The notes under the pieces: model-generated
Databases searched by the model: none
What the model was told of the DNA's origin: nothing
Seen by the model: the letters and a program-made list of their open reading frames with translations, nothing else
Position numbers and translations under genes: made by a program
Source: Candidatus Omnitrophota bacterium
GTDB lineage: Bacteria > Omnitrophota > Omnitrophia > Omnitrophales > JACQLI01
Reading direction: 5' to 3'
DNA length: 45,607 nucleotides
Assembly: GCA_016179745.1 (NCBI GenBank)
Contig: JACPCP010000015.1
Span: 1 to 45,607, forward strand
Shown: one piece after another, positions 1-29,930 of the stretch
Numbering within the stretch: position 1 is the first letter of the stretch
Layout of the letters: each line of letters starts with the position of its first letter

Positions 1-3000
1 ATCGGCTTTGTCCTGGTCGGGGATGTCCAGGTCATGACCGTCAACGGCCAGAGGATTGATTCTCCCTCGGGCCAGCTGGAGGTCACAAACCTCTTAGTCA
101 GTAATATCGTGGGCTCGGTGCTGATCCCGGCGGGGTTTGCGTTTAGACTTCAAGCCGGAAGGCTGCAAATCAGAGATTTGAAACAGGGAGGGGGTTTCTT
201 GGATGTGAATTCGGTCGAGTTTGCGAGTCTTCTGAGGGACTCGGGCAATCAGGATGCGACGGTTACGAGCTTAAGAAAGGCATTCCGGATTTCTTTTGTG
301 GCAGATGGCAGCATACTTTTCAATGGACAAGCTGCGACGGGTGAAACCGTGAATCAAGTTATCTCAGGGGTTATTTTGGCTGCCGTCTTGGTGCCGGCAG
401 GATTTGGTTTTTCTGTGGATGATGGCGGGGGGCTTCGAATTGGAAGGGACGTTGACGGCGAATTCCGCACCGTTAATGCGCCAGAGTTACTCTTTATCCT
501 GACGGATACAAACGATGGCCGAGGCGGTGCCCTGAGACAGAGGCTGGGTGTTGGGATTGATGCGACGACCGGAAATCTGGTTGCTGTCAACGACTTCGGC
601 CGGGCCCTTCTGAGCAACCAGGCATCGCAGCTCATCGCATTCTTGAATTTAACGGTTCCCACAGGCTCCCAGGTTGAGGTGACGGCAACGGGACGTATTT
701 TTGTCACGCCGCCCAGTAAAGAGTCGGCACCAGGCGAGAAGATAGAAATTCCGGTTAAAGTGTGGGGCGATTTTCTGCTGAGCGGGACCTACCAACAGGT
801 CAGGAATGCCTTGGGTCTTCGTGTTGAAAATGGCCGCTGGACCAGCTCCAATGTCGGGATTCGCGCTTTAATCGATCATTCCTCAGGCGGCTTGGGATCT
901 CTCATTGGATTTTTTATGACGGGGGAGCTGAAAGAGGTGGAGACCCGGCAGGTGAACGGAGAAGACCGGATTCTCGTGATAAAAACGGTGGGGGACCGGG
1001 TGGTGACGTATGATCTCTTGAATGCCGCCCGCACGCTGGCCGTGATGATGGGGGACAACCGGGTCTTGAATCGTCTGGGGATCAATCCCCAGACCGGAGA
1101 ATTTGACCCGGCGAACCGGCTCTCTTCCTTCTATCTCCATGAAACCAATCCCTTCCTGTCGAGCTTGATGACCCGCCTCGGATTAAGGGAAGGGAAGGTG
1201 GACCGTGAAATCATCAAGGGGAAACGGGATGAGGAGCGCCTGATTTCGGAAACCTTCGACCTGCTTAAAACTTTGGGCGAGATCGGTGGACTTTTGGAGG
1301 ACCCCGGCGTTCTTGGAAACCTCGGCCTCAAGGTGGATGGAGCGACAAAGGGAATTATCCCGGATCCAGAGTCCAATTCTCCGATCCGGAGATTCCTCGA
1401 AGATGAGCGGACCCAATCGACCGTGTTCGATTTTGCCTTCTTCCTGGCAGAAAGATCAAGACCCGGCGGCGGGGTCAGAGTGCCCGTGAGCGAAGGGCGT
1501 GAGCTGACCGTGGCGCAATATGCGGAGGGGATTGCCAAACTTGTTGCGGACCCCGTCCTGAGAGGCGTGATCGACGAAGGGCTCACGGCCGGGAGACTGG
1601 CCGAGTTGGATCGAGAGAAGGAAAAGCGGGCGCCCGGCGTCGAGATCTCCGGGGAAGAGCCGCCTGCCATCCGATCCCGGCAGCTGATCCACAATCTGGT
1701 GGCGATCACCTCGGATGAAAAGTTCCTCGAACTCTCACGGAATGAAGTCTTCATCAAGGTGCTGGGCCAGGAGAAACTGAACGGCCTGGTGCTTTTCTAC
1801 GCCTCTCTGGTGGAATTCGGAAGCCGGGGAGAGCTCCTGCTCCGGTTCCCGGATAAACAGCCGGTCCCGGCGAGGCGGTTCTTTTCGGCCTTGAATGAAA
1901 TTGTGTCGGAGGAGGCCTTCTTCCGATTGATCGGTCTTTCTGGCAGTGCCGGGCTTTATGATTTTCTGACGAGCGACAATCTTTTCATTCGAAAAGCCAA
2001 CGGTCTTTTGACGGGCCTGGCGCTCGACCGGGATGTCATCGAGGCAAACATGGAAAAAGCCGGTGTCAGACCTCTGGATGCCAAACTCGTGAAGCTCATT
2101 CAGCAGATGGTGAGAGTTCTTCCGGATGTCAACAAGATGCGGGAAGAGGCCAACCTCCGTGCGGTGGATCCCTTCAGGCCCGATGACTTTGCGCTTCTGA
2201 TTGCCATTGCCACCGAATCGCTTGTGCCGGGGGTCGATGTGAAGGACGTGCTTTTTGAGCCCACGGTCCAGCTTGCGCTGGTCGGCCGGCTGAATCTTTA
2301 TGAAACCTGGAGGCATAATGCTGCCCGGGAATCCAAGGTGCGTTGGCAGATTTTGGAGCTGATGCGGAACGCAAGGCACGATGTCGACAAGCAGGCGATT
2401 GAGACCTTCCGGGCTTTTGTTTGGGCCCACGGGGAACTTAAAGAACTCAAAGCCTCCAGGGAGCGGCTCAGCCAACTCCGGCAGGGGATGGGATACGCCT
2501 CCCTCTCTGCCCTTCAGACACTGACTCAGTCCGGACCCTACTCACCCGAAGGCGCCCTTCTACTTTGGAACCAGCTCAGGTCGGTTGAGGAGGCCATCCG
2601 GTTCAAGGAGAAAAACCTAAGGTATCTTGAAATCCGGGCCCGGTCCCTCCTCGGGGAAATTCCTGAGGCCGAGAACCTTTCGCTGGCGACGCTGAAATAT
2701 ATTTGGGGCGCCCTGGAGCTGGACCGTTCCCTGGTCAGCGAGATCAAGGCCCTCGAGAAACAGGAGGAAATCCTCAAGAAGGACCTCCCTGAAAAAATTC
2801 GTGCGGCCCTCGGCGCCCCCGATGTGCAGGCGGCGATCGACACCCTGGTGGATGTGACCCGGCTCCTCGGGCTCGATACCTATGGAACGATCTTGAAGAT
2901 CGAGCCCTTTCTCCGGGCCACGTTCAGCCCCCAGGCTTATCAGGACTCCCGGGCCCGGGGCCACGACTGGCTTCGAGCCAAAATCGAAGTGGCGCAGGCG

Positions 3001-6000
3001 AAGCACCGGCTCGTTCTCGAACGGGACAAGAATGCCGGGCTCCTCGTTCTGGCGAAGGAAGAGCTGGATGAATGGGAGAAGGCCCTGGAAGAAGCCCAAA
3101 ATCATGAGGAGGCCCTGCTCAAGGACGGGACGGTTTCACCCAAACTCAAGGCAGCGGCCAATCAAAGTGTCCGTGGAATCCTTGAGTCTTACCGGAGGGC
3201 CGAAGAAGAAGTTGCCCGTTTGGAGATTGCCGAAATGGGCTACCGGCGGGCCGAAGCGGCAGAACTGATTAGGCCCTCAACCGGCGAAGCGGTGACCGTG
3301 CGGGCGACGGTGGACGACCTCGCCCATTTTGCAAAAGCCGGTCAAATCCTCGGTCCCCAGTGGCAGCAGATTTTGGCGGCCCGGGCCCGCCTCAAGGGCG
3401 AGAAGACCGTGGTTTTAAACCGGATCGCACTCGAGGGCGCCGTCTCCTTCCCGATGGATCTCAGGAAGGACAAACACTTCGGCCAAATTTTTGATCAGGG
3501 GGTTTTCTCCTGGTCTGCCCTGATCGCCATCGTGCTCTACGATCCGGACCAGCCCGCCACGATCGAAAAGGCCCGGCTGGGCGTAAAGCTTGCGGAAACA
3601 AGTTTTGAGGATGCCGACGACCGGCTGAATCTGACCATCGCCGATTTCCTCATTCGTTTCATGGATGCCGATGAAAACGTCGAGCGGGCCGAATGGGAGC
3701 TTAAGGCCGCCCAAACCCGTCTCGACGAAACCCGGAGAAAATTGGCCCAGGCTGTGGACCCTCAATCCCGGGAAGAGCTTCAGATTCAAATCATGGCGCT
3801 GGAGCGGGAACGCCACACGAAAAAGGCTGCCGTGAACCACATGAAGATGGGGCGGCTTCACACCGAGACGGACTTGAAAGCCCTTGTCGGGCTCAGCCCG
3901 GAGGCCCGGCTTGAGATCAATCCGGAGGAGGCCTTTTCTTTTGTGAATACAAAGAGCCTTCAGGCCTACCACCGGTATTTTGAAACCGACTCCGGGGGGA
4001 ATATCCTCCGCCTGACCGGCGAGGGTGAGACGCTCCTCGGGGAGGTGCCGAAACTGCTCGACCTTCTCGAAAAAACCCTCAAGCGTCTGCCTGAGGGAGA
4101 GAAGGCGAAGCTTGGCAAAAATATCAAGATGATGCGGGAGATTTATGAGAAGGCCCTGGCGACTCAGGATGAGACGAGCGGGCTATTGGCCCGTCTCAAG
4201 GCGGAGCTGGAAAAGTCGGCCGCCCGGAAATTGACGCTGGAGGAACAGACGGAAACGCTTGAGAAAAAGTTGAATGAACTTGGGAAAATTTTGGAGAAGG
4301 CGCCGGATTCTGAAGAGGGGAGACTTTTGGAGGCCAATCTTCTTGGGCACCTTCTCGTCCTCATCGATTGGGAGGATCCGGAAAACTTTCCAAAGATCGA
4401 AGCCCGCCTGAAAGAAGCCAGGGCCGCCGTGGTCCGGCTCTATCAATTGAGAGGCGCAAGGCCCCGGGAGGACCGGGAGCTTGACGGCCTCCAGGAGGCC
4501 TTTATTGATCTCGAGACAAAGTTTCAAAGCCGGCTTCAGGAAGAAAAGGCCAAAAAAGAAGAGGCCGCTCCGCTCAAAGTGTCCACGCCGGAAGAAATTC
4601 AGACTCGATTTGGGGCCTTGAGAGGAGTTCTTCAAGATTCGAGCTTGAGCCTGGACGAACTGGAAGCCCTTGAAAAAGAACTCGGAGAGATGCTTCACCA
4701 GACAAGAGACGCCGCACTCCTTCTCGAAATTCGTCTGGTCCTGATTGAAACGGAAAACCGGCTGGCCGGGGAGGCCCTCCGCCTCCGGGACAAGTGGCAG
4801 CCCTGGAAGGGGACCCGGGAAGGCGTCAAGATCATGTTCGGTTTTATGAGAAAGGGCGAGACCTATGATTCCCGGATGACGCAATTGGCGGAACGGTCGC
4901 TTGACGCATCCCTTCGAATGACCAATGCCCTGGAGGAACCCGTGGCGGCAGCTCCGGAAGAGGCCCGGGACAAATTTTCTGAGCTGGTGGAAAATCAGAA
5001 CGCAATCTCCCAGCGCCTCCACAAGAAAGAGATCCCCTCCGAAAAAGACCGGAAAGAAGTTGGGGTGAACGTGGCAGAGAGGCTGGCTGGAATCGACAAG
5101 AAGGATCTTGTGGAAGCCTACCAGGAATACGAGAGTTTGCTTCCCTTTGCCCAGGGGAATGAGGAGCTCGAGGCCATCCGAACGGAGCTGGAGTCTGTCC
5201 GCCATTTGATGATGGAAAAAGTCTATCTCCACCTGACCGGCAGGAACTTCGTTGAAAATATCAGCGAAATCAAAACCAGGATTCAGGGGATGGAGGCCAA
5301 GGCCCTTGAAACGTTCCGGAAGAAAACCCTGGAGCCCTACGAGCCCTATCTTGAATCTGATACGGATTTCCTTCTCATAGCGAACGAAGCCCTTCTTCGG
5401 TCTGTCGGGCTGGAGGGCGAAAAGGTGACGGCGAAGACGAGCCTCAAGGAAATCGACCGCCTCCTTGCCCTTCTGGAGGAAGTCCGCTCCCTCGGCGCCC
5501 TTTACGAATCGAGAAGGGAAACTGAGAAAATTCATCTTTACACCGCCAAGATTGAAGCGCTCGAGGCCGGGGGAAAGGACCAGAGGGCGCTTGAAGTGAC
5601 CTTGCTGGCTCTGGCCGTGATCCGAAGCCTTCCGGAATCCGGACGGACAGTTTTCGAAGAGACTGAAAACCGTCTCCGAGGAAAGGAAACGGAGCTTCGT
5701 TCCAGGATTTCGGCCAAGGCGGATGAAGTCGTGAAGAAGTTGGAGGAGAAGGAACGGCCGGAGAAGGAAAAGAAAACGAAGGAAGAACAGAGCGATGCGG
5801 TTCAAGAGGCGCTTCTTCGAGAAGCGCTTGACCAGGAGAAGGCGGGAGCTGACGAAGAAGCCCTCCGCATGGCCCGCCTCCTCCTTGCCCGGAACCCCAA
5901 CCTTCGTGAAGCCGATGACCTGCGTGACCGGATTCTGACCCGGTTGATTCAGGAGACATTGGCCGAGATCCAGGAAAGACTCAAGGACCCCAACGCCTCG

Positions 6001-18000: not shown

Positions 18001-21000
18001 GCTGTTGAAGTTGCGAGCCATAGCCGTTTCTGGCCTGCATTTTTGGTGCCGGATACGATCATTCTCACTCCGAAGAACAAAGAGACCTTATATTCCCGGA
18101 ATGAGGATTTCGCCGGACTTCTTGGCACGTTCTACAAATTGGCCGATCAGATGGTTCTTGGGGTGTCCAACATGACAGGCAAGGGGCTGGTTATCTTTGA
18201 ACCTTGGTGGGGCCAGGGTGACGCAAGAAATTTTCCGACACCCTGGTGGTTTGTTTTGGCGGGGAACCTTGCAGGCAGCATGGCGGGCCTGGCTCTCTCG
18301 GTCCTTTTTATGAATGGAAATTATCTGACTTTCTGGATGTTTGGCTTCCAATTCTTGGGACTTGTCGCAACATTGGTGATGGGCGCAAGGATTGGAGGTG
18401 CCCTTGCCACAGTTCCTCATAAGCAGTTGAGTCACGACTATAAGGAAGCCGAGCGTGCCGGAGCGATTATCGTGGTCAATATTGGTATTACAGAGCCTGC
18501 CACTACCAATCGGATGGAGACTGACACACGGGTCAATGAGCGTTGGTTTATTGGTGATTTTTTGAGATTTGTTCTTGATATTTTCAAAGCTGGCGCAAAA
18601 GCTGTCTATCGCTGGATCACCGAACAGGGACCCTTGGGGTATCAGTCCACCCTCCTCTTTGGAATATGGATCATCAAGAGATACATTGTGGACCCGGCAT
18701 TTTCTGGGCTCGCCAACTTCTACTCACATTCTATTCCTCATACAACAGAATACGATATGGGTTCCATGATTCTTTCCAGTAACGCATGGGGCACTCTTCT
18801 TGCCATACTGATTTCAATTTTCATACTAGGTTTCCTCAGGAATGTAAGGGGAGTCGGTGGCGAAAAAGACGAGGCGTCGACGCTGTCGCCTTTCGCAAGA
18901 AAAGTGAACTTTACGCTGATGGCGATCCCGCTGATTCTCCTGATGGCACATTGGATCGGTCTGCTTTCGCTCTCTGCCGGCTTACTCGAAATGGTTTTCA
19001 TTGCAGGCTTGCCCGCCTTTGGTTATTTTCCGGCGAAGATTTTGGAAAGATACAACCTTGACACAACCCCTCTCCGATTTTTAATTTTGCTTGGTTCACC
19101 TTTCCTGGGCGGGGCCGTTGCTCCCATGGTGAATCCAGGACTCGTGGTTTTCAATTTTCCGGAAGTCCTTCTCCTTTTCTTGTTAACGATACAAATGTTT
19201 TTGGTCAATCCGATTTTGTTCGGAAGCGCCAGGGGACGGATGTGGCATAAAACCGCATTTTTCTATCTCAGCACAACGCTGTCCCTGGGGAATGCGATTC
19301 GTATTTTCAAATTTTTCGTCAGGGTCGTGATCAAAACCTCCATGGTCAGTTACCAGGATTTTAAGTCGAAATGGGATCTCTCCCTGGGAGCATTGATCGG
19401 CACGCCCTATGTCCTTCTGAGTAAGTTGGCGATCTTTGTAGTTCCGCCCGTTCTGTTTTTCGATATTGGAGGATACCGGTCGGCTGTCATTGCTCCATTG
19501 TCGAAGCTGCTTAGACTTGCAGATTTCTACGGTCCTGTCAGTCTGGGTGGAATGCAGGTATTTATCACCGGGCATCCGTATGTGACCGCTGTATTTCTTG
19601 GAATGGCCGCCGTCTGGTTCCTGTATCGTTCAAGCCGCTTGGTTGACCTTCCCATTAGAGACCAGCAGCATCCGTGGGTTGCCTTTGCATCGGTTGCGGT
19701 GAGAAACATCCTGCTTCTGGGGTCTTATCTTTACTTTTGGGATGTATTTCTGACTGCCCTATTCGGAATTTCTTCGGGCATTTTCTTCCATTCGAATTTG
19801 TGGACCTTTATCTTTGGCGTCACTTTCTTATGGTCGTGGTCCATGTCGCCCTGGCATGACTGGTTTATGTCGAAGGCGCTGCCGAAAGGATACCCTGCCG
19901 CAACGGTGCCCATGTCTTTCAGGAAGGCAAAGATGCTGTTCCGGCATTTCATTAACAGTCTCCTCTTGGAGTTTTTTGATCGGGTGCAGTTGGATGAAGC
20001 AAGCATGAATGAAAAATATGCCTGGTCTTTTAAATTTAAGTCAAGCGAACAGCCGAAACCGGGTGATCCGGACATACACTACGTATTCAAGATTGCGGGA
20101 GTTCGAAACTGGAAGGAAAACAGGACCCAACTCGCTGGGTTATCGAGCGTGCCCAATATGCTGTTTAATCTTGGGTTCTATTCGGGAATCTTTTTTGGAA
20201 TGAGCTTCTTTGTAGTAACCATCTTTCTTCACTCACTCCAGTTTGGCTGGCCAAGCTTTCTCTATTATGCATTTAGCGCCATTCCGGTCACCTTCCTCCT
20301 TCCGGCCTTGGCGGGGTTTGCGGCCGTAAACATTCTGATGATCTTTCCGCTGGGGGGCCTCGTTCTTGAGGAGTATCGCCGCTACATTGCGGATGAGACA
20401 ACTTCCATTCGGGATGGTCTGGGGCCCACACGCACGGGTTATCAAGTGCTGTATGCCCTGTTTGTGAAAGGCGGGAAAAACAATCTGCCCCCTCCTGAAA
20501 ATTGGCTGAATGGTGTTGTCCGCAAAGGCTTTATCTGGGGAGGCGAGAAGGCACTGAACCTCCTCGCTCGATTGCCCTTTGGGGTTGGAAAGTCATTCAT
20601 CAGATTGCTTTCGGCGAACGATGACGGAACTCCGCTGTTCAGGGCCAAGCCGATCGGAAAGAAAACGATTGGCGACGTGATGCCTCGGGAATTCCCCAAG
20701 CCAGGACCCTGGCGAACCTGGTTAATGCTGGGACTGGAAGCCGTGGCGCTGGCCGCCGTGCTTTATTTTATGAAGGGCGTCAATAAGGACAAAGAACGCA
20801 CGACAGGTCCGGCAACGAGCCGGCCGGCGGCGGAGCAGACGGTCGATATCGTTCCGCCACGGTCGGAGGTGCGGATGCCTGAAACGGGCCGGCTCAAGCG
20901 GATTAACCCGGCGGTGCATCCCGATCCGAAGGTGGTCATTTTTGATTTGGATGGGACGCTGGTCGATTCCCTCGGGATTCAGGAAGAGGCCTTCGGCCGG

Positions 21001-24000
21001 CTCTACTACTGGATTGTGAAGGGAGACCTCCGGGGGCGGGACTCCTCAGAGTATGCGGCGGCCGGGAAAGAATTTTTGAAAAGAACCATGGGGATGCTTT
21101 TCACAGCCCAGGTTTTAAGGATGCTTAAAGAAAGCCCGGCGTCCGAAAAAACCCTCAAGGCCCGTGCCGTCCGGATTGCCGAACGATACAAGATCCCAGC
21201 GGAAAAAATTCAGGGGCGTTCTTCCGGGAACGCCTATCTGGAAATCTACGAAGCCTTCTTGACAGAGAAGCTGGCCCAGACCGGCGTCAAGCGTCTGGCC
21301 GGCGTTGAGGGGTTCTTGAATTACCTGAAAGAAAGGGATATCCCAATCCACATCTTGACCGGCGGACTTGCCAAGATGGCTTACGAGCTGCCCCGGCGGG
21401 CGGGTGTCACCCATGACTTCAAGGAACACCACGGCGCTTCTCACGAAACTTTCCGAGTCACGACGGGCAAGGCGCACTTCATTGAGAAGATCCGAGGAAT
21501 GCATCGGGCGAAACCCCATCAGGTTTTGGTCTTTGGAGACGGGGCCGGAGATATGCGGGCAACGAGACTTCGCAACCGCAAGATTGCCGTTGGGATCGGG
21601 CTCGCCAAGGGAAGCCCGGATCTTGCCCAAGAGCTTGAAGCCTCCGGAGCGGACTTCATCGGCCATTCGCTTCGAGACTGGAAATCCTGGAAGAAGACCT
21701 TAAATCTCGAAGCGGCACCGGCAAAACGTTCCGAACTGCGGACTTCGGCCCGGTCCGATTCCTATGAATTTGTGAAACAAGTTGAACATGAGGCCGGGGC
21801 CCCCGGCGATCAGCACTTTCTGGGAATTGCGGAAGAGCTGAAACTGGGGTATCTGACCCCTGAGGAGGCGAGGCAGGAAGTCGAAAGACGTGTCCGCCAC
21901 CGATACCTTGATCTTGAGAAGCTCGTTCAAGAGGGGGAGTCGTCCGTCCCGATCGCATTGTATGAAATGTTGAGACGGCAGGTGGAAGAAAAAGACAAAC
22001 TGACTTCCGATGACAGGCCCGGGTTTATCCCCGAGGGTTTCGCTCCCGGCGCCCCCTATTACCAGGGGACCACCGTTCATCTCTTTGACCGGGGGAGTTA
22101 CGAAGGGCCCCGGTATTATCTCGGTTTGAATGTGCCGGGACGAAAACTTAGATTTCGAGGAGTGAAGGGACACACCAACCGGACCGGAGACAACTGTTTC
22201 CTTTGTCAGAAAAACATTCCTCCCCGGGAGATTGGGATCAAGTTTGCCGGGCTGGCAAAAAGCTACACGATCTTTGCGAATCCCTTCCCGTATGGTTTTT
22301 TTCATTTTGTCATGGTCCACGATGACCACCGGCGTCAATTTCTTGATCAAAAGACCCTTTTGGAAGTCATCCGGTTAAGCCATGAGCTTCCGGATTTTGT
22401 CTTCATGCACAATGGAGAGGCCGGCGCCTCGATCCCCTCCCACCACCACTGGCAGGGTTTTAAAGTGGGAGCCAGTTTGAGCATGACTCGCTTTAAGGAA
22501 CACCTTGACATAGACCCCAGCCTGAACAAACCCTTGATTCATGGCGACGCCTTTACAACAAGTTATGGAGAGAAAGTGAACTATGTCATCGGGACGTTTC
22601 CGATTTATCTCTATATCAACGAAGCGCTGAAGCCGAGCTCAGGGCTGTATGGCCGTCTTGAAATCTACAGGGATGAACCCGATTTTTTGGCGGCAAAGGT
22701 CCGGGACTGGTATGAAGGAGTGTCGGCCTACCTGGTGGAGGGCACAAACCCTGAGCAGGTCGCCGAGCTCGTGGATGCCCTGGTGAGAAAACTAACCGAC
22801 GAAGTTGGCGCAGGTTACAGCCTGGCCCTTCAACAAATGGAGCGGACGACGACGAAGAGGGTCTCTGTTCTGATCTTTCCCCGTCCCATGGGGAGAAGGC
22901 CGCAGCTGGCTCAAAATACAATCTTGATCGGAGCCCCCGAAATGGGCGGCTTGATCAACATTGCGGATCACCCCGGCTATTTTACGAATTTGGCCTTAAA
23001 CCAGGTTGCCGATCTGATGCGGGACGAGAGCCTTCCCTACGATCGTCTCGGGCCTCTTGACGAGGAGCTGGCTCGAAGATTTCGAGCGAGGTCGGAAGTG
23101 AGGACGCAAGCGGCCGCTCAAGCCCGGATCCGGGCGGAGCTGACCGGGACCCAGCGTGCGCTCATTAAAAATGAGAGAGAGCTCAGGAAACGGCTGAAAG
23201 AAGTTTTGGCGGACCGGACTCAAGACTTCAGCGACATCATCCTTGTGGTCAATGAGAAGAATTCTGAGAATGCCCGGCGGCTCATCGAACGGCAATTAAT
23301 AGGAACGGTCATTCCCAAATCCATGGAGCTTGGCAGGGACATCTGGATTATCGAGCAAACCGGGGCGGGAAGCATTACCGATCCCATGCAGGCTATCCAA
23401 AAAGTTCTCGAAAGGAAGAGGGATCTTTTTATCAAGGCCGGGGAAGACCCTGAAACCGTGGACCGGCTTTTGGAAGCGTCGGCCTTTTTTGTGGTGACCA
23501 TGAGCGGAAAGGCGAGCCGCAGTTTGACCGACAAGGCCTTTCTCAGGCTCCCCCAACCAAGAGGAAAGGGCCCGATTGGAAGTTATCTGGCAAGGGTTCT
23601 CCTCCAGCGGCTTTATTACCCACGGGTCCCCGGGGCCGTTATTCACTCGATTGACACGATGAACATTCCCCGGTTCCTTCCCGGAGAGCTTGGGGCGGCA
23701 GACATTCAAATGATCGGCGCCCCCCTCGGGACCCGTAATCGGGAAGTGCCGACCCTGGGGATGGCGGCGCTCCGGCATCCGAGGCGGGCGGGGTCGCAGG
23801 CGATCGAGTTTGTCGGAGAAAAATATACAAGAGAAGAACTGGATCAATTACAAGCGGCGGGACGGATCGGAAAAGAGATTGACGTGAACCACGCCGTTTA
23901 TTTTCTCAAATGGAAGCCGATCCGCTGGCTGATCGGTGAGGTGGAAGCGATGAAGCAGGCCCCCCCCGGGGCGCCTTACAACTGGGTGGAGTCTTTCTTT

Positions 24001-25497
24001 GAACCGGCCCGCCTGTCCTTTGAGGATTTCCGGGCACGGTATCCGCTCCTGGACGAGAAAGCCGCAAAGAAGTTTCACGCCATTGCCGAACGGGCCGGGG
24101 CTCAAGGATTTAAAATAGAATTTCTGAATTTGGGCCCGGGGACCTTCTATCGGAACACCAACCAGCCGCTTCAATACTTTGAACTTCTCTCATCTCTCGC
24201 CCGTCATCCTGTGACCAAGGCGATGCTGGATAATCCGAACTCGGTGATCGGGAACGTCATCGACCCCCGGATCCCACCGAGAGGGATTGGTCCGAGGGCG
24301 GTCATATTCGGGAATGTCATCAACGGCGACCGCCCTCGTCAAGTCCGTATTCACGGGGTCGTGACCTCCAGTATCCTTGGCGGAGCCATTGAAATTCCAA
24401 AAGGGGCCATGGTCGAGCAAATGCTGGCTCCCCGGGGATTGAAAGTTCAGGTAGGGACTTACAACCAGCATATGCTTATTTTGGGGCCCACAGGGCTCCT
24501 GCTCATCCGGGTTTCCTTCCCCCCCAATACCAACCTGAAAGAGGAGCGCAACGGAAGGAAGCTGTCCGATCTTGCCATCTTTCCCCGGGAGCCGGAGAAG
24601 GAGGCCCTTCCCATGGATCCGAGCGAAGAACATCCGGATAAATTTTCCATCACCCAGCTGAAAGAAAAAATGGATCAAGACCACACCTGGCCGATTTTTT
24701 ATTCGCTCCTGCCCACGTTCATTGAAGTAAAAGATAAGGCCCCAAAGATTGTGAGCTGGCTGGAAAGTTGGCTGAAGCAAAACCAGATCCAGTGGATTCA
24801 TCCCACCTCAGAGGGGACCGGATCCGAGGATCGTTCGGAAGTGAGACAAATGACAGAGGCCCTCGGAGGGATCGAAGAGTTTCGGCTCCAGACCCTCCTC
24901 GGCTTGAGGAAGGATCTGGGAAGGGAAAGATTCGACCGGCGGATGGAAGAAGCTCTTCGGGAGGTCCTTCATGAACGTGGAATCATGGGGCTGGGGACCG
25001 CCGCTATGAACGGAATTCTGGTGCTTGAAACGGCAGACCCGGCCCTGGTCCGGCGGATGAGCGGTGAAGTTCCGGACGGTGTTCGTCTGGTCCTCTATCC
25101 GAATCCCCGGACAACGTCCCGTGAAGGGCGAAGTGAACTTCGACGAATTCAGGCAGGCCATCCCCGGGTGATTGTGCCCGGAGAAGATGAGCTGGCCTCG
25201 ATGCCGAGCTTGAGCGGGTTCGTCGAAACATTTGTCATTCAAGGACTGGCGAGACAAAGAGGAGTCCCTTCAGAAAAGGTGCTTCAGATTGTGACGGCGT
25301 CCCCCGAAGGGAAAGAGTATCCCACGGAGGCAGTTGCGCTCCTTGAGGGCGCTCTCCTCAGGCTGGCCCTGGATCGGATTGTGGTGGCCGGCCGTCAGAG
25401 AATCCAAATTGCAGGGAGCGGAGTCGAGGCCGTGGATTTTTCGGAACTCATCTCCGAGGCGCTGGAACGTCTTGAGGCCGTGGGCCATTCAGCATAA
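1..25497 (+). CDS. Giant multi-domain envelope protein, 5'-partial, at least 8,498 aa
   Basis: The frame is open from base 1, so the ATG at 34 is internal and the true start lies upstream. The stop is TAA at 25495. In order it shows: a beta-rich repeat array (about 43-850); mostly helical and coiled-coil sequence with TolC/OEP-like hairpins (about 2380-7780); helical sequence I cannot assign (7780-11590); a D-x-G-L-L-x-x-H-A tandem repeat (11590-13435); more unassigned soluble sequence (13435-16020); a polytopic membrane module (16024-20778); and enzyme-like cassettes separated by RSE(V/L)R pentapeptides at 20860, 21727, 23089, 24832 and 25129. It ends in ...GHSA. Only 21 bases separate it from the next ORF, which suggests cotranscription. 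The layout suggests a trans-envelope protein with catalytic cassettes after the last membrane helix. No overall function is recognised. One uninterrupted frame with coherent domains argues against a false ORF. Confidence 0.9.
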   Translation: MGFVLVGDVQVMTVNGQRIDSPSGQLEVTNLLVSNIVGSVLIPAGFAFRLQAGRLQIRDLKQGGGFLDVNSVEFASLLRDSGNQDATVTSLRKAFRISFVADGSILFNGQAATGETVNQVISGVILAAVLVPAGFGFSVDDGGGLRIGRDVDGEFRTVNAPELLFILTDTNDGRGGALRQRLGVGIDATTGNLVAVNDFGRALLSNQASQLIAFLNLTVPTGSQVEVTATGRIFVTPPSKESAPGEKIEIPVKVWGDFLLSGTYQQVRNALGLRVENGRWTSSNVGIRALIDHSSGGLGSLIGFFMTGELKEVETRQVNGEDRILVIKTVGDRVVTYDLLNAARTLAVMMGDNRVLNRLGINPQTGEFDPANRLSSFYLHETNPFLSSLMTRLGLREGKVDREIIKGKRDEERLISETFDLLKTLGEIGGLLEDPGVLGNLGLKVDGATKGIIPDPESNSPIRRFLEDERTQSTVFDFAFFLAERSRPGGGVRVPVSEGRELTVAQYAEGIAKLVADPVLRGVIDEGLTAGRLAELDREKEKRAPGVEISGEEPPAIRSRQLIHNLVAITSDEKFLELSRNEVFIKVLGQEKLNGLVLFYASLVEFGSRGELLLRFPDKQPVPARRFFSALNEIVSEEAFFRLIGLSGSAGLYDFLTSDNLFIRKANGLLTGLALDRDVIEANMEKAGVRPLDAKLVKLIQQMVRVLPDVNKMREEANLRAVDPFRPDDFALLIAIATESLVPGVDVKDVLFEPTVQLALVGRLNLYETWRHNAARESKVRWQILELMRNARHDVDKQAIETFRAFVWAHGELKELKASRERLSQLRQGMGYASLSALQTLTQSGPYSPEGALLLWNQLRSVEEAIRFKEKNLRYLEIRARSLLGEIPEAENLSLATLKYIWGALELDRSLVSEIKALEKQEEILKKDLPEKIRAALGAPDVQAAIDTLVDVTRLLGLDTYGTILKIEPFLRATFSPQAYQDSRARGHDWLRAKIEVAQAKHRLVLERDKNAGLLVLAKEELDEWEKALEEAQNHEEALLKDGTVSPKLKAAANQSVRGILESYRRAEEEVARLEIAEMGYRRAEAAELIRPSTGEAVTVRATVDDLAHFAKAGQILGPQWQQILAARARLKGEKTVVLNRIALEGAVSFPMDLRKDKHFGQIFDQGVFSWSALIAIVLYDPDQPATIEKARLGVKLAETSFEDADDRLNLTIADFLIRFMDADENVERAEWELKAAQTRLDETRRKLAQAVDPQSREELQIQIMALERERHTKKAAVNHMKMGRLHTETDLKALVGLSPEARLEINPEEAFSFVNTKSLQAYHRYFETDSGGNILRLTGEGETLLGEVPKLLDLLEKTLKRLPEGEKAKLGKNIKMMREIYEKALATQDETSGLLARLKAELEKSAARKLTLEEQTETLEKKLNELGKILEKAPDSEEGRLLEANLLGHLLVLIDWEDPENFPKIEARLKEARAAVVRLYQLRGARPREDRELDGLQEAFIDLETKFQSRLQEEKAKKEEAAPLKVSTPEEIQTRFGALRGVLQDSSLSLDELEALEKELGEMLHQTRDAALLLEIRLVLIETENRLAGEALRLRDKWQPWKGTREGVKIMFGFMRKGETYDSRMTQLAERSLDASLRMTNALEEPVAAAPEEARDKFSELVENQNAISQRLHKKEIPSEKDRKEVGVNVAERLAGIDKKDLVEAYQEYESLLPFAQGNEELEAIRTELESVRHLMMEKVYLHLTGRNFVENISEIKTRIQGMEAKALETFRKKTLEPYEPYLESDTDFLLIANEALLRSVGLEGEKVTAKTSLKEIDRLLALLEEVRSLGALYESRRETEKIHLYTAKIEALEAGGKDQRALEVTLLALAVIRSLPESGRTVFEETENRLRGKETELRSRISAKADEVVKKLEEKERPEKEKKTKEEQSDAVQEALLREALDQEKAGADEEALRMARLLLARNPNLREADDLRDRILTRLIQETLAEIQERLKDPNASVEDLLKKVTDLAAGDKIIGLETGVRTPAFMLLLLGELQEFSRQFEAATEKFTPAQKRTHQALEGLRKILTGDVYPFAEGDMLIYQIAMRKAEITMVKKGEAWKIKIGAQSFFLGAAAGPLAFIAGFDIPDNVKARLLRHIPIVNFVTGALRYERDRQNEIKILKDEIKLLELQLDRLAEHRENQEIYLRNYHQTVYAEHRLAEAFLTRQARELDRVEKSLTVGAARESDVIEARNRLLRTQGELAKYRYQMTWNKARMEKAGMDPAPLEEEVAQAFHPEVTLGIQRTMGEAQTFYDLQRDRLEAHRRGLVAQSIRNIEGHEGGTLLFLPQTTPGQLSKAVSGMPLVVLTEVRDQARPSVVSSIALPVERLFMPVARQAVSYQRETQIENEERVTGLRNSIWQSYAGYVVAKNVAELLDPKEKTREEQLRDAELARELQQWGYGVVYFAESNLNDAKNEAVRAARDLDTTLLNLRHLLGEAGLEFNPYDFLPADLEGLGAADSLMALVLGTDPSHSRTAELIRERMERIRLGRQKLFIETLVPDIALKIEYPNPQTKEPRFGLSLVYSVLGSGRHYEKKILNVSEDQLRWQRMANPSKEMEALQILQNDLASAQGRMADLKKEAGERAEFDPVFKQLEQKFLSQRADLSDLKDLAEYTVAFDIRLRAAAVDYVLAYARLLEKLSSLGVKIPAELRLKAPSGKEKTSFEKQIRGEAQGVEGPSAAPKVSAPSRAGALAPETEKVLERWEAAKGSIQQAVDQADQKPARRFEPEADLLPFGPARDASLGLTNGNRAGVQIFEANLFNAYLWQPGRALDSLARHQFGDYADAKALLQIEYPRAYQEAKALVRDRFSALLKEAQEAVKKPEAEVSPEARAKYQAFLQMAPRIRLDEGDFYGHWYVWSTFALEAADIPFRLLSALPPDVKAELTAVLTPDFFLERIPDVERTVFEVRSQSFIGVVNFAGTSSDELRRGAAELHPVFSQIRNTLGLEPVAVDEPFTQFALAAYQNASQRWGYTPDEFKGVLTAVNGILADPAKPIQGFYGDFLARDAGGNYVAPLSRVAAQEGFTVLGGDILLVQRWNEDLKLLQTGELKQKVELAVKTVAGLEEDFRASLTLGGANYWAHAVIQEMMAEGVLTTPKDISGPAVAEILSRLKQKFDRLRMLEGATEDLWRTSGDLKPGEGIDHLNRIQMGSLSARMGLIEKEAQKEAEYQAKAKEYGRFVDLEKLIFPVLTSEPALKTLKLEPGFKLLDPEKGSDASGKWDYWTRTLVEKVYLREKFTETKQPEYESYEKWLGHFSKDDAGWQTELKNVEAFREAGKFQQLFSDLEFLGSGLRRHPGYLRDDKEVFGWYEAIWKEGVSIPAYLGLIDLYEQNGQPIKQLAHSKMLSPDPAGLYRMQGGTPQALMALKIYAAGGLEKLPDPDRILYQAFVGSHPVDEVREVLKEAQAMEARQSAPALHEGTRKHLEARIESLEADLRHNAQIQTGLSLFKSLLGKEIVKEKLKRLEELEDQASKNPLAPDEVKELEKLRDLPRAVPRIEDVPRMFEEYLKEKGKLGGPPSAALPGRRLEILSKTGAEFLEGGLAARLDTESRPIVESGYDSVLTGEPASEALPAPGAELVTPEEAGALVKGLEENWKDIQELWDALEVKDKNGNPAAFNWADPHHFGVLGATVLGGDLEGLTPGQIKTRTKGLIEILKDNSLMASYGGYLDEAVDTQLIPDGSTLKKELAASFFDPAKRETSYELWGRMAAAEKELFGDYDWEKELLDRKRENQRLDPDNAPIFEEGYPKSVEETRQWYGLSQAERFTKYGEMLKAVSGIKKGEETLHNEKRELRPRDKTKAEVQKARDNEGALKAQARFVVMISGWDEAKLNQSDFGRKMLNLWKEQHKTTEERIELYNQLLGIQSKIRGSLEDVLREDWGRRGLRKTALDLKSKTGVDSGLLLVHSFAAYLDYGDAGTYNDVLGILKKIRGDTGQTDSVEGLVGTIDLLSEEGSDSGLLMSHAAFVAVLKGFKETSLEKLRLQAEREQASGKKSVFFRTLYQFWKEFKDAAPADRVAPYRKILEIEGNLKRAGILEDLLEHRLNLRGTGISDPVLAGRDPGLLQAHAVAALVKYGGDTAKYNELLKVAKDIKPDIVKPAGGLDLMSEGGDDMGLLLAHAETITDPEQVLDWEKLKAGAAKSDFGRQMLEFWEGFVRKSIPDRTADYKDILTVIGKLKEKDGANEVPLEALIGKELNLRDPEGMDSGILLSHAVGGLIQYREKHPGDKDPENAARNYIGLINVARQIKGPLEKLIQPDLKAGGRTPGPDGLVHFNLLEEGGGDMGILMGSAGTVLDPKYFKGDVKKFVETAGVAEEIRTDFEGLLEIDLKKRNKTTLDLLAPEGADMGALMGAAGAFLEDKEKKDSEFKGDLAAYRARLGQAKEVREVTGRIYEALAGRDKGFTDFPEFDLLREEKEGETKWVPEQMGLLMAWAKEGKVKAEQFLGVVQSPAFGDYMHALADDAEGYDFRTVVHDNFKAAIGQRDESQKKQSYFHLVGRISSYSNLYPDVYSLETELLGRTALIRETGNLESARNSAAMGRLYNRVQLGEEEVAIGRDRVSTTTELEKAFYSLVLEQAALQKGSSWTDADRQAAENGFPVFFTEMQSGRMNKIWKNQMTGLPAPNPDWTERDYQQAAEVWQAAAKPWVEEHQKILDLLDEGEIEFKMHPTKTKEKLYYPVEMEFDLHKERVGTLDYLETWKNKKFTGLDDTQSPVRKSFEEYYKYDQLQGLVDYWHRALHENPEGRTEPMTFKDIERVMDRTKRAWKFYKTYWEPEGVFLTKGDMMAIVYGGVKTEQLEGYFVQGLLVLALAQGRQDKLPDEYREMIPDVKFKGLEEIDSKLKGLEKVNLGRKLKFRELNSYIYELDLLLKNYWHSDLRKFGSHLPDMRFLAVRKLAGKMGFVDPHDVDKTYLLYAGDAGEKQREIMWQAAWHLKRAALPGTDAYQFLEALYDNVQDGVRFHQILEFGERVMEGVRDARFNHSLTFDKEMLADEAQLAKFLILRLATRPSKRDLVTQEEKKAARIYTEADTQEQKREFLDWLIEQNQIHGRIDEGLKDEVLKLPTSEEINAVINDLKTLMHEFVEEMRIQPEAGQVLKALLKIRSEKSVENFLKIEEGILKFYLQEILTPAPVSLNEKEMEMTPGEFLPVEAEQNGIALPDTDREKWLKAVNSETISKYVVRRIFTDWKHWKEREVELGFPATERLQWEDFLRMVARVRGVPLKEAGILDEAASPSLTQKQRSNRDGFESAQRVEVEHTLQPVMERIVAEGNERVKEELRTGERKFSLEVKLEKASPERIGTERIVAAGVIATLLSGLIYLLVLLGAFSDYLQRQAFKPDPSGRGGKAVKRSDWEFVKTHLIPKESFNKFKTMWERLTGRLPEVPSLTFRAMIYFPVLFGLPLLFIWRMYSTFDPANSIIWLAMLDLTVTYPLIVNNVHIQLDWITTRLFPQSARADDKEARYRTIAPEAEKHTPYYTGKNGSPRHAEDLLEMKGKDVDPNEIKNQFPHKAGLDADLPGDERDIFIKVVEVNGQEKILPLSDPEAQAALANPAGRKVTIIYTRLSVFTPPSYDKVWDRLEAKLKRQIDEADRKKMQKELLEWFEEKFEANWRMNRIERAFEDDSFRLFGVRFSGSEKIKFGDIFGDEFFLRNTIDSLSNNLDPNGRVTLTILTQFGADLVKANRDYQAGRIDQNHPDYSKVLTYQFIIKILNYARRQVIIIGQSRFNSAQYTNPFYGGRRDDNATLARSGRELIYWTPPEDFQFDKKQGHLAAFTDYMMGIDGPPPVKAGEPIPGLRNQGRVEDPVGALLVDLMGVIFGLVGYQWVASAILLFFGANLILIPGYPVWVGLVLTFVGLRLGKELMSYIRPSNFKPPRRGDKYFVEELYQTGDTDLGYNPQHLLRTRVRTGTDSEGKAVFSTNAEGSWAGFLLDEKNRAGDNPADPQYWFGKLLFPIRKAVEVASHSRFWPAFLVPDTIILTPKNKETLYSRNEDFAGLLGTFYKLADQMVLGVSNMTGKGLVIFEPWWGQGDARNFPTPWWFVLAGNLAGSMAGLALSVLFMNGNYLTFWMFGFQFLGLVATLVMGARIGGALATVPHKQLSHDYKEAERAGAIIVVNIGITEPATTNRMETDTRVNERWFIGDFLRFVLDIFKAGAKAVYRWITEQGPLGYQSTLLFGIWIIKRYIVDPAFSGLANFYSHSIPHTTEYDMGSMILSSNAWGTLLAILISIFILGFLRNVRGVGGEKDEASTLSPFARKVNFTLMAIPLILLMAHWIGLLSLSAGLLEMVFIAGLPAFGYFPAKILERYNLDTTPLRFLILLGSPFLGGAVAPMVNPGLVVFNFPEVLLLFLLTIQMFLVNPILFGSARGRMWHKTAFFYLSTTLSLGNAIRIFKFFVRVVIKTSMVSYQDFKSKWDLSLGALIGTPYVLLSKLAIFVVPPVLFFDIGGYRSAVIAPLSKLLRLADFYGPVSLGGMQVFITGHPYVTAVFLGMAAVWFLYRSSRLVDLPIRDQQHPWVAFASVAVRNILLLGSYLYFWDVFLTALFGISSGIFFHSNLWTFIFGVTFLWSWSMSPWHDWFMSKALPKGYPAATVPMSFRKAKMLFRHFINSLLLEFFDRVQLDEASMNEKYAWSFKFKSSEQPKPGDPDIHYVFKIAGVRNWKENRTQLAGLSSVPNMLFNLGFYSGIFFGMSFFVVTIFLHSLQFGWPSFLYYAFSAIPVTFLLPALAGFAAVNILMIFPLGGLVLEEYRRYIADETTSIRDGLGPTRTGYQVLYALFVKGGKNNLPPPENWLNGVVRKGFIWGGEKALNLLARLPFGVGKSFIRLLSANDDGTPLFRAKPIGKKTIGDVMPREFPKPGPWRTWLMLGLEAVALAAVLYFMKGVNKDKERTTGPATSRPAAEQTVDIVPPRSEVRMPETGRLKRINPAVHPDPKVVIFDLDGTLVDSLGIQEEAFGRLYYWIVKGDLRGRDSSEYAAAGKEFLKRTMGMLFTAQVLRMLKESPASEKTLKARAVRIAERYKIPAEKIQGRSSGNAYLEIYEAFLTEKLAQTGVKRLAGVEGFLNYLKERDIPIHILTGGLAKMAYELPRRAGVTHDFKEHHGASHETFRVTTGKAHFIEKIRGMHRAKPHQVLVFGDGAGDMRATRLRNRKIAVGIGLAKGSPDLAQELEASGADFIGHSLRDWKSWKKTLNLEAAPAKRSELRTSARSDSYEFVKQVEHEAGAPGDQHFLGIAEELKLGYLTPEEARQEVERRVRHRYLDLEKLVQEGESSVPIALYEMLRRQVEEKDKLTSDDRPGFIPEGFAPGAPYYQGTTVHLFDRGSYEGPRYYLGLNVPGRKLRFRGVKGHTNRTGDNCFLCQKNIPPREIGIKFAGLAKSYTIFANPFPYGFFHFVMVHDDHRRQFLDQKTLLEVIRLSHELPDFVFMHNGEAGASIPSHHHWQGFKVGASLSMTRFKEHLDIDPSLNKPLIHGDAFTTSYGEKVNYVIGTFPIYLYINEALKPSSGLYGRLEIYRDEPDFLAAKVRDWYEGVSAYLVEGTNPEQVAELVDALVRKLTDEVGAGYSLALQQMERTTTKRVSVLIFPRPMGRRPQLAQNTILIGAPEMGGLINIADHPGYFTNLALNQVADLMRDESLPYDRLGPLDEELARRFRARSEVRTQAAAQARIRAELTGTQRALIKNERELRKRLKEVLADRTQDFSDIILVVNEKNSENARRLIERQLIGTVIPKSMELGRDIWIIEQTGAGSITDPMQAIQKVLERKRDLFIKAGEDPETVDRLLEASAFFVVTMSGKASRSLTDKAFLRLPQPRGKGPIGSYLARVLLQRLYYPRVPGAVIHSIDTMNIPRFLPGELGAADIQMIGAPLGTRNREVPTLGMAALRHPRRAGSQAIEFVGEKYTREELDQLQAAGRIGKEIDVNHAVYFLKWKPIRWLIGEVEAMKQAPPGAPYNWVESFFEPARLSFEDFRARYPLLDEKAAKKFHAIAERAGAQGFKIEFLNLGPGTFYRNTNQPLQYFELLSSLARHPVTKAMLDNPNSVIGNVIDPRIPPRGIGPRAVIFGNVINGDRPRQVRIHGVVTSSILGGAIEIPKGAMVEQMLAPRGLKVQVGTYNQHMLILGPTGLLLIRVSFPPNTNLKEERNGRKLSDLAIFPREPEKEALPMDPSEEHPDKFSITQLKEKMDQDHTWPIFYSLLPTFIEVKDKAPKIVSWLESWLKQNQIQWIHPTSEGTGSEDRSEVRQMTEALGGIEEFRLQTLLGLRKDLGRERFDRRMEEALREVLHERGIMGLGTAAMNGILVLETADPALVRRMSGEVPDGVRLVLYPNPRTTSREGRSELRRIQAGHPRVIVPGEDELASMPSLSGFVETFVIQGLARQRGVPSEKVLQIVTASPEGKEYPTEAVALLEGALLRLALDRIVVAGRQRIQIAGSGVEAVDFSELISEALERLEAVGHSA
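43..850 (+). repeat. Degenerate beta-rich protein repeats, about 95 aa each, at the visible N-terminus
   Basis: Three tandem units begin near 43, 322 and 616, giving periods of 93 and 98 residues. Each contains a hydrophobic stretch leading into P-A-G-F-x-F (or V-P-T-G-S), then G-x-L-x-I, then a T-x-x-L-R segment ending in a strand before the next N-G-Q. The bases before 43 encode the end of another unit, so the array continues upstream of the window. The pattern of short alternating hydrophobic strands and glycines suggests a beta-solenoid or adhesin-like fold. The family is not recognised. Confidence 0.55.
2380..7780 (+). other. Coiled-coil region with repeated TolC/OEP-like helical hairpins (domain of the giant protein)
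   Basis: This stretch is dominated by E/K/R/A/L heptad-like sequence. Several sub-blocks resemble the outer-membrane efflux protein (TolC) pattern of long helices, a G-x-x-x-x-x-D-V turn, another helix and a closing L-x-x-L-x-G. Examples are around 2390-2700 (ends LLGEIPE), 2940-3920 (ends ALVGLSPEARLEI), 6340-6810 (VGAARESDVIEARNRLL) and 7120-7740 (ends with a strand-rich LSLVYSVLG segment). A TPR-like patch lies near 5830-5940. The OEP assignment comes from pattern recognition only. Generic coiled coil is the alternative. Confidence 0.45.
11590..13435 (+). repeat. Tandem protein repeat with D-x-G-(L/I)-L-x-x-H-A core
   Basis: Eight copies of a core resembling DSGLLMSHA lie near 11821, 11989, 12307, 12463, 12739, 12973, 13162 and 13405. 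The last three have lost the His (MGSA, MGAA, MAWA). A second conserved block, SDFGRQMLEFW-like and followed by DRxxxYxxIL, recurs at 11629, 12112 and 12553. The composite unit is therefore about 150-160 residues with two cores per unit. Helical sequence of the form Y-x-x-L-L-x-V-A-K-x-I follows alternate cores. I recognise no family. The conserved Asp and His could be structural or ligand-binding. Confidence 0.7.
16024..20778 (+). other. Polytopic membrane module, about 18-20 predicted helices (domain of the giant protein)
   Basis: Hydrophobic segments of about 20 residues start near 16042, 16300 and 16381. A hydrophilic insert of about 360 residues follows (16460-17545). Further segments lie near 17551, 17600, 17650, 18241, 18310, 18649, 18766, 18907, 18970, 19080, 19150, 19410, 19580, 19680, 19740, 19800, 20161, 20250, 20300 and 20719. 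The module ends in a single helix and a polar linker that runs into the first RSEVR site. It could be a transporter, a polysaccharide-handling channel or an anchor. I see no recognisable transporter signature or DxD glycosyltransferase motif. GC is visibly lower here than in the flanking sequence, including in hydrophilic parts. Confidence 0.75.
20875..21726 (+). other. HAD-superfamily phosphatase cassette (domain of the giant protein)
   Basis: This 284-residue unit lies between the RSEVR at 20860 and the RSELR at 21727. All four HAD motifs are visible: IFDLDGTLVDS (nucleophile and acid Asp, from about 20938), the Thr of HILTGG (about 21349), a Lys in TTGKAHFIEKI (about 21460) and VFGDGAGDM (about 21532). 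The insertion before motif II resembles phosphoglycolate phosphatase or beta-phosphoglucomutase-type caps. It should hydrolyse a small phosphorylated metabolite, and the substrate cannot be read from sequence. It follows directly after the last membrane helix, so it should be on the cytosolic face if it uses cytosolic substrates. Confidence 0.85.
21742..23088 (+). other. GDP-hexose phosphorylase / GalT-like HIT-superfamily cassette (domain of the giant protein)
   Basis: This 449-residue unit lies between the RSELR at 21727 and the RSEVR at 23089. Visible features are a Cys pair in NCFLCQ (about 22192), a strand FPYGFFHFVMVHDDH (about 22285) and the active-site-like SIPSHHHWQ (about 22432). 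The last matches the H-x-H-x-Q type site of galactose-1-phosphate uridylyltransferase, Ap4A phosphorylase and plant VTC2-type GDP-L-galactose/GDP-glucose phosphorylases. These enzymes transfer nucleotidyl groups between sugar phosphates or phosphate through a nucleotidyl-histidine. The spacing looks closer to the VTC2/DUF4922 group than to classical GalT. The exact sugar is unknown. Confidence 0.7.
23104..24831 (+). other. Possible sugar nucleotidyltransferase-like cassette (domain of the giant protein)
   Basis: This 576-residue unit lies between the RSEVR sites at 23089 and 24832. A GAGSITDP loop (about 23368) and VVTMSGKASRSLT (about 23491) may mark a nucleotide-binding core. FYRNTNQPLQYF (about 24148) resembles the N-T-N motif of UDP-sugar pyrophosphorylases. 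A strand-rich tail with VIFGNVINGD and GVVTSSILGGAIE (about 24300-24400) resembles a left-handed beta-helix end. The neighbouring HAD and GDP-hexose phosphorylase-like cassettes fit sugar-nucleotide chemistry. No single diagnostic motif is complete, so this is a weak call. Confidence 0.35.
24847..25494 (+). other. Two short C-terminal cassettes of unknown function
   Basis: An RSELR at 25129 splits this stretch into units of 94 and 117 residues. The first is helical and then strand-rich (GIMGLGTAAMNGILVLE, then VRLVLYPNPRT). The second has a helical middle and a strand pair (ALDRIVVAGRQRIQIAG) before a final helix and the terminus GHSA. Neither is recognised. Their small size and separation by the same pentapeptide used around full enzymes makes them look like independent folding units. 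Confidence 0.5.
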
Positions 25498-29880: not shown

Positions 29881-29930
29881 TTATGAAGTCCGGACTTTGT
29901 AAGTCATTACCTATGAAAAGGAAAGAGAGT

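Follow-up and report, generated by a model that had tools for sequence, protein, structure and literature searches.

In viral and other processed polyproteins, a single ORF encodes functional units that are split by a repeated short motif, and a protease-like domain is part of the chain. Among giant proteins, a 39,678-aa protein of V. archaeovorus was reportedly described by Kizina 2022, and West-Roberts 2023 is said to have treated the giant ORFs of Omnitrophota. Giant ORFs are established for this phylum, and coats, adhesins and predation have been proposed as their roles; scarce domain annotation and poor conservation obscure their functions, and what these proteins do remains a standing question in the field (PMC10066038). 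Here we analysed a window of 45,607 nucleotides (the whole stretch of DNA under study) from an Omnitrophota genome, which begins with such an ORF. From sequence comparison we put the chances at about even that this giant ORF is the C-terminal part of a member of an exported, polyprotein-like family that is processed at a short linker motif. The family is apparently undescribed, giant Omnitrophota ORFs as such being already known.

The giant ORF is a stop-free run of 8,498 codons with an open 5′ end. At 25.5 kb, it exceeds the 20 kb mark for Omnitrophota giant ORFs, and the chance of such a frame at the composition of the window is ~10^-158. In-frame GC1/GC2/GC3 periodicity runs along its whole length, and the number of N bases in the ORF, as in the entire window, is zero. 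The window begins where contig G000:C12 of the source genome (121,221 bp) begins, so the true start lies off the contig. In G013, another genome of the same order, an intact protein of 11,896 aa encoded in one frame (contig G013:C60) is collinear with aa 211-6818 of the giant ORF in five blocks (~6,600 residues), with 30-36% identity in the long blocks and 23-24% in two weaker ones. Further alignments were obtained with G038 (aa 4469-6789) and G031 (parts of aa 4467-8056). The occurrence of the same segments in the same order and in one frame in independent genomes argues against misassembly. The G013 homologue has ~2,600 additional N-terminal residues that start with a signal peptide. The complete protein would accordingly be ~11,000 residues long, of which the giant ORF probably covers the final three quarters. 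The missing N-terminus was not found elsewhere in the source assembly, where only the head domain described below and fragments matched, and a first scan of genome contigs with the C-terminal enzymes returned no relatives.

An artefact, either a misassembly or a read-through of the frame, might be suspected from the source genome being a 25-contig MAG that is 79% complete, with contig ends lying within these ORFs. In addition, a 35,113-aa ORF in G037 and two ‘22-kaa’ ORFs in the source genome itself turned out to be N runs and were dismissed as genes; contigs G000:C7, G000:C15 and G037:C37 consist of N wholly or over long stretches, and frames there are therefore no evidence of giants. For the ORF studied here, we regard this explanation as extremely improbable, since it is N-free and shows coding periodicity throughout, and since collinear homologues exist, including an intact one. 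The giant gene is thus confirmed as real and as a continuous single ORF. The original prediction of one frame of at least 8,498 codons was borne out, as was its remark that giant ORFs are known in this phylum (PMC10066038). The signal peptide that it proposed to look for, of the Sec type, is visible by eye at the N-termini of the intact homologues.

Table 1 Features of the giant ORF and of the two ORFs that follow it (positions in the window)
Feature	Position	Strand	Basis
Giant ORF, 8,498 aa, C-terminal part of a longer protein	1..25497	+	stop-free frame, open 5′
Duplicated ~60-residue unit, beta-rich by eye, aa 26-83 and ~114-172	76..516	+	alignment vs shuffles
OEP (PF02321) repeat, aa 1121-1277	3361..3831	+	28-30 bits, cut-off 22
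Weak OEP repeat, aa 2156-2259	6466..6777	+	15.5 bits, under gathering score
OEP repeat, aa 2376-2478	7126..7434	+	24.8 bits, cut-off 22
Helical tandem repeats, aa ~3930-4460	11788..13380	+	
Membrane module, aa 5348-6924, 14-15 hydrophobic segments	16042..20772	+	hydropathy
Stretch like OpgH-type glucan synthase (TGKG...SHDYxE...RxxxRWxxGD), aa 6057-6186	18169..18558	+	
RSEVR linker motif, aa 6954, directly after last membrane helix	20860..20874	+	
HAD-type phosphatase/mutase domain, aa 6977-7187	20929..21561	+	
RSELR linker motif, aa 7243	21727..21741	+	
DUF4922 domain, aa 7398-7486; weak GalT-like similarity	22192..22458	+	
RSEVR linker motif, aa 7697	23089..23103	+	
RSEVR linker motif, aa 8278	24832..24846	+	
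RSELR linker motif, aa 8377	25129..25143	+	
C-terminal tail GHSA (...EAVGHSA), fits family ending [SA]A	25483..25494	+	
ORF2, 1,405 aa: signal peptide, TIKI-fold head, RSELR (aa 614), RSEVR (aa 1280), ends VSA	25519..29736	+	
TIKI/EreA/ChaN-fold head (‘QDAH’ domain) of ORF2	25597..26976	+	model, pLDDT 80
ORF3, 2,630 aa: signal peptide, TIKI-fold head, RSEVR at aa 630, 1442, 2424, ends ASA	29883..37775	+	
TIKI/EreA/ChaN-fold head of ORF3	29970..31268	+	
Glycogen/starch-synthase-like domain of ORF3, between RSEVR at aa 630 and 1442	32445..33863	+	

Near its open end, the giant ORF carries a duplicated unit whose alignment scored 74 compared with 29.5 ± 5.8 in shuffles; it was not recovered by self-BLAST at E 1e-3. 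This unit is what we found of the beta repeats that had been predicted. Two PF02321 matches exceed the gathering score and, at the level of sequence profiles, show homology to efflux-protein hairpins rather than prove a barrel. The predicted TolC-like part shows up in these matches as separate hairpins rather than a full TolC protomer, and no match to the OEP region was found among PDB sequences. Hydropathy reduced the predicted ‘about 20’ membrane helices to 14-15 hydrophobic segments. The membrane module that they form is conserved in G013, G038, G031 and G021; a search for plasmid-borne relatives of it gave no match, and its structure model (pLDDT 33) was unusable. The stretch within it that resembles OpgH-type glucan synthases was aligned by hhalign with an E value of 0.0017 and a probability of 15%, and Pfam, NCBIfam and PDB sequences gave no match, so this weak resemblance may serve as a lead only.

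The order from the OEP repeats through the helical region and the membrane module to soluble enzymes is present as predicted and recurs in the relatives, and the HAD-type and DUF4922 domains are there as claimed, with additional unassigned sequence behind them. All five linker motifs of the giant ORF are located past the last membrane helix. They bracket the enzyme domains, none of them falls within a domain, and aa 1-6953 contain zero. This arrangement, a motif behind the last helix of the membrane module, holds for four genomes, G013, G031 and G021 among them. These data bear on the original prediction of one chain that crosses the envelope uncut, with an OEP channel outside, the membrane module, and the catalytic domains attached inside. 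The conserved order of OEP, helices and enzymes in the relatives is in line with it, and the motif-free part from OEP to membrane would remain one piece. However, the enzymes are bracketed by the motif, the OEP matches are separate hairpins rather than a full TolC protomer and have no PDB sequence match, and the motif also stands between enzymes of soluble exported relatives that have no membrane helices. We therefore consider the uncut chain quite unlikely: its order is real, but the chain probably does more than end in enzymes that stay in the cytosol for good. Since the motif also splits enzymes in soluble exported proteins, the layout of the giant ORF, which had been thought unusual, is one case of a larger family and not an isolated trans-envelope design.

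The linker has the consensus R-[SA]-E-[LVA]-R and is often followed by S/T/A and then by an acidic residue. In 310 unique contexts, R, E and R are strict, and 69% of the flanks are disorder-prone compared with 54%. We counted RSE[ALV]R over the whole source genome, read in stretches (contigs C7 and C15 read as N): 26 ORFs with a length of 1,300 aa or more (88,300 aa) hold 81 copies, whereas 1,033 shorter ORFs (365,740 aa) contain 3; the reversed motif as a control occurred once in the long ORFs and once in the others. A pattern scan at the DNA level found the motif enriched in many of the order's genomes (218 vs 14 in G021, where motif repeats are dense, and 101 vs 7 in G013). Beyond the order, counts did not exceed the control, with G079 (9 vs 2) as the only possible exception. 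In 14 proteins with 133 motifs and 50 recognised domains, no motif falls within a domain, compared with 22.7 expected from a simple coverage estimate with head borders placed by eye. Synonymous codons of the motif vary, showing that selection acts on the peptide and ruling out a DNA-level repeat or recombination scar. The same motif parts enzymes in wholly soluble, signal-peptide-bearing proteins of the source genome. Several family members lack membrane helices within the chain; provided that the signal peptide is functional, everything they carry should be exported. Some units between motifs are just 15-80 residues long, and long motif-free stretches hold several enzymes, for example two GAPDH-like domains within 2,265 residues. 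Motif-poor genomes of the same order still encode the head, and no substitute motif was found in these lineages. The pentapeptide looks like a cutting or docking site.

Three family ORFs lie in tandem within the window, separated by gaps of 21 and 146 bases. AAA_14/DUF4143-type ATPase genes are located nearby, one at 37837-39006 (+) identified by Pfam and one at 41197-42387 (-) by resemblance. A fourth family ORF on the contig (G000:C12:48785-54330, L094) contains a head, a kinase domain and the motif and then appears to continue, through a frameshift, in a second motif-bearing frame. Elsewhere in the source genome, G000:C8:20934-64883 (-) encodes 14,650 aa with TIM, aldose epimerase, PGK, three GAPDH-like, FBA-like and PGM/PMM domains. 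The family ORF at G009:C88:18416-90000 (-) (L317-L320) is 23,964 aa long and ends with ESA; it has 8 motifs and zero N in the 23,861 residues read. In G021, a motif-free ORF of 5,559 aa with a signal peptide (G021:C44:2-16678 (-), L018) adjoins two motif-rich ORFs.

Motif-bearing ORFs with an intact start begin with a signal peptide (by eye), which is followed by a head of ~450 residues that we call the ‘QDAH’ domain; both are present in the homologues from G013 and G021 and in ORF2 and ORF3. The head is encoded by 173 of the 384 sampled genomes of the phylum, including all 47 of the order, and some heads sit in frames of only ~520-560 aa. Named records with a head belong to Omnitrophota except for three labelled Elusimicrobia (L146, L152, L199), which are either mislabelled bins or indicate a wider range. 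The AlphaFold model of the ORF2 head (pLDDT 80) matched HopBA1 (Z 9.2), an EreA-like protein (7.9), ChaN (7.8) and EreC (7.1), and six of its eight best structural matches were to the TIKI superfamily (Z 7-9). The top Foldseek match was EreC (probability 0.92, E 0.03). Sequence profiles hardly reach the family (best E with Pfam ChaN 0.016), and a profile search against PDB sequences gave chance-level matches only. The head is thus predicted to have a TIKI/EreA/ChaN fold, with moderate scores (Z under 10). In alignment numbering, H49, E79 and H411 are each conserved in 15/15 heads and D47 in 14/15. RRSP is a TIKI endopeptidase whose relatives include HopBA1, Bcr135 and ChaN and whose active site consists of E-x-H, E and H (PMC6254334). 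D47-x-H49, E79 and H411 appear to correspond to this active site in order and roughly in spacing. At the other end of the chain, 36/42 motif proteins finish with [SA]A compared with 36/1,290 others (p = 4e-44). One of the exceptions, C12:48785-52870, overlaps a shifted motif-bearing frame that ends with RRSA, and the deviation is therefore probably due to a frameshift. The grammar of the family is thus a signal peptide, a protease-like head, domains split by R-[SA]-E-[LVA]-R, and an [SA]A end.

In the processing that we favour, the Sec-type signal peptide would lead each family member out, and the pentapeptide would be cut during or after export, probably after its second arginine. Among the candidates for the enzyme that would cut at R-[SA]-E-[LVA]-R, the head comes first, because the Arg-specific or trypsin-like protease families that we tested do not track the motif: C11 gave none, and S1 and S8 are patchy and absent from the motif-rich G013 and from G000. 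As all motifs of the giant ORF come after the last helix, cuts would leave the body from OEP through the helical region to the membrane module whole and set free the HAD and DUF4922 domains and those that follow. The least certain step is where the freed enzymes would work, whether outside the cytoplasm or inside a host or prey cell. Several findings speak against processing: the very short units between some motifs, the motif-free stretches that hold several enzymes, the motif-poor genomes of the order that nevertheless encode the head, the moderate fold scores of the head, and the loss of active-site residues from some of the cargo.

Docking without cutting would account for most of the same facts and is the main rival. 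The pentapeptide would then be a docking or anchoring tag, each copy bound by an envelope partner, and the intact chain would form a beads-on-a-string scaffold at the surface or in the periplasm. The motif is short, exposed, strictly conserved, linear and placed between domains, it is densely repeated in G021, and the conserved head and tail suggest that the whole chain is recognised; moreover, giant Omnitrophota proteins have been proposed to form an extracellular coat (PMC10066038). Yet such a tag needs no bracketing at near-native length, whereas the TIM domain in G000:C1 is flanked by RSEAR on both sides at distances of 7 and 4 residues, so that the unit between the motifs measures 277 residues and the enzyme ~255. 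In addition, the head resembles a superfamily with sequence-specific endopeptidases. We consider docking a real possibility, though an improbable one.

The cargo comprises many domains, often similar to soluble enzymes. In the source genome these include domains like TIM, GAPDH (three), PGK, PEPCK, FBA, PGM/PMM, iPGM, glycogen synthase, aldose epimerase, epimerases, a PLP enzyme, methyltransferases, protein kinases and an SNF2 helicase, as well as sigma-70 regions and HEAT repeats. Searches with E. coli seeds found TIM, PGK and GAPDH of the source genome only in family ORFs. However, we withdrew the claim that these glycolytic enzymes occur solely there, since relatives carry gap-pgk-tpi as a cluster, the MAG is incomplete at 79%, and C7 and C15 are N. 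The TIM of G000:C1 keeps every catalytic residue examined. Other cargo copies are strongly diverged: one TIM has lost Asn, and Cys and His are kept in two of the three GAPDH copies, Cys being lost in the third.

Such divergence could mean that duplicated genes drifted into fusion with exported giants, that their cargo is mostly decaying, and that the motif is a by-product of joining. The long branches of the polyprotein TIMs and the GAPDH without Cys agree with this, and a role outside the cytoplasm is hard to see for helicase and sigma-factor-like domains. On the other hand, the peptide is fixed while its codons vary freely, one TIM has all examined catalytic residues, and the [SA]A tails and head residues are maintained, so that we hold drifting accretion to be rather improbable. 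Returning to processing, a more tentative extension, possible but doubtful, is that the order exports a second, diverged set of central-metabolism-type and regulatory enzymes as self-processing polyproteins, each with a TIKI-type protease head, R[SA]E[LVA]R as cut sites and the shared C-terminal tail, and that the enzymes set free act outside the cytoplasm, perhaps in host or prey cells. No cofactor supply for central-metabolism-type enzymes outside the cytoplasm is obvious.

The common head, motif and tail provide a handle for telling which giants belong together. Splitting at the motif offers a route to domain-by-domain annotation of giant Omnitrophota ORFs and marks where mature products would begin and end, and thus suggests targets for assays. 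If cleavage does occur at the motif, bacteria make many enzymes together as polyproteins, of which we found no report; the open literature, bioRxiv lying outside it, gave no pertinent description of the head, the motif, the tail, RSELR, RSEVR or Omnitrophota polyproteins.

Compared with known systems, the family shares phylum and size with the published Omnitrophota giants and, like them, has membrane helices, few annotated domains and poor conservation. For those giants, the portions of the reports that we consulted describe neither a common head nor a linker pentapeptide, and no rule for the C-terminus or series of metabolic enzymes. The giant ORF has PF02321 repeats in common with TolC/OEP outer-membrane efflux proteins, here as separate hairpins in a chain of 8,498 aa, and a stretch among its membrane helices resembles, with a weak profile match, the SHDxxE ... 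RxxRWxxG pattern of OpgH/NdvB-type membrane glucan synthases. With the TIKI/EreA/ChaN superfamily (RRSP, EreC, Bcr135, ChaN, HopBA1), the head shares the predicted fold and the D/E-x-H ... E ... H arrangement; unlike those members, it fronts large exported multi-domain proteins. Finally, unlike viral polyproteins, in which one ORF is likewise divided by a repeated motif, this family, whose cutting we infer, is encoded on a bacterial chromosome, carries metabolic-type cargo and occupies many loci per genome.
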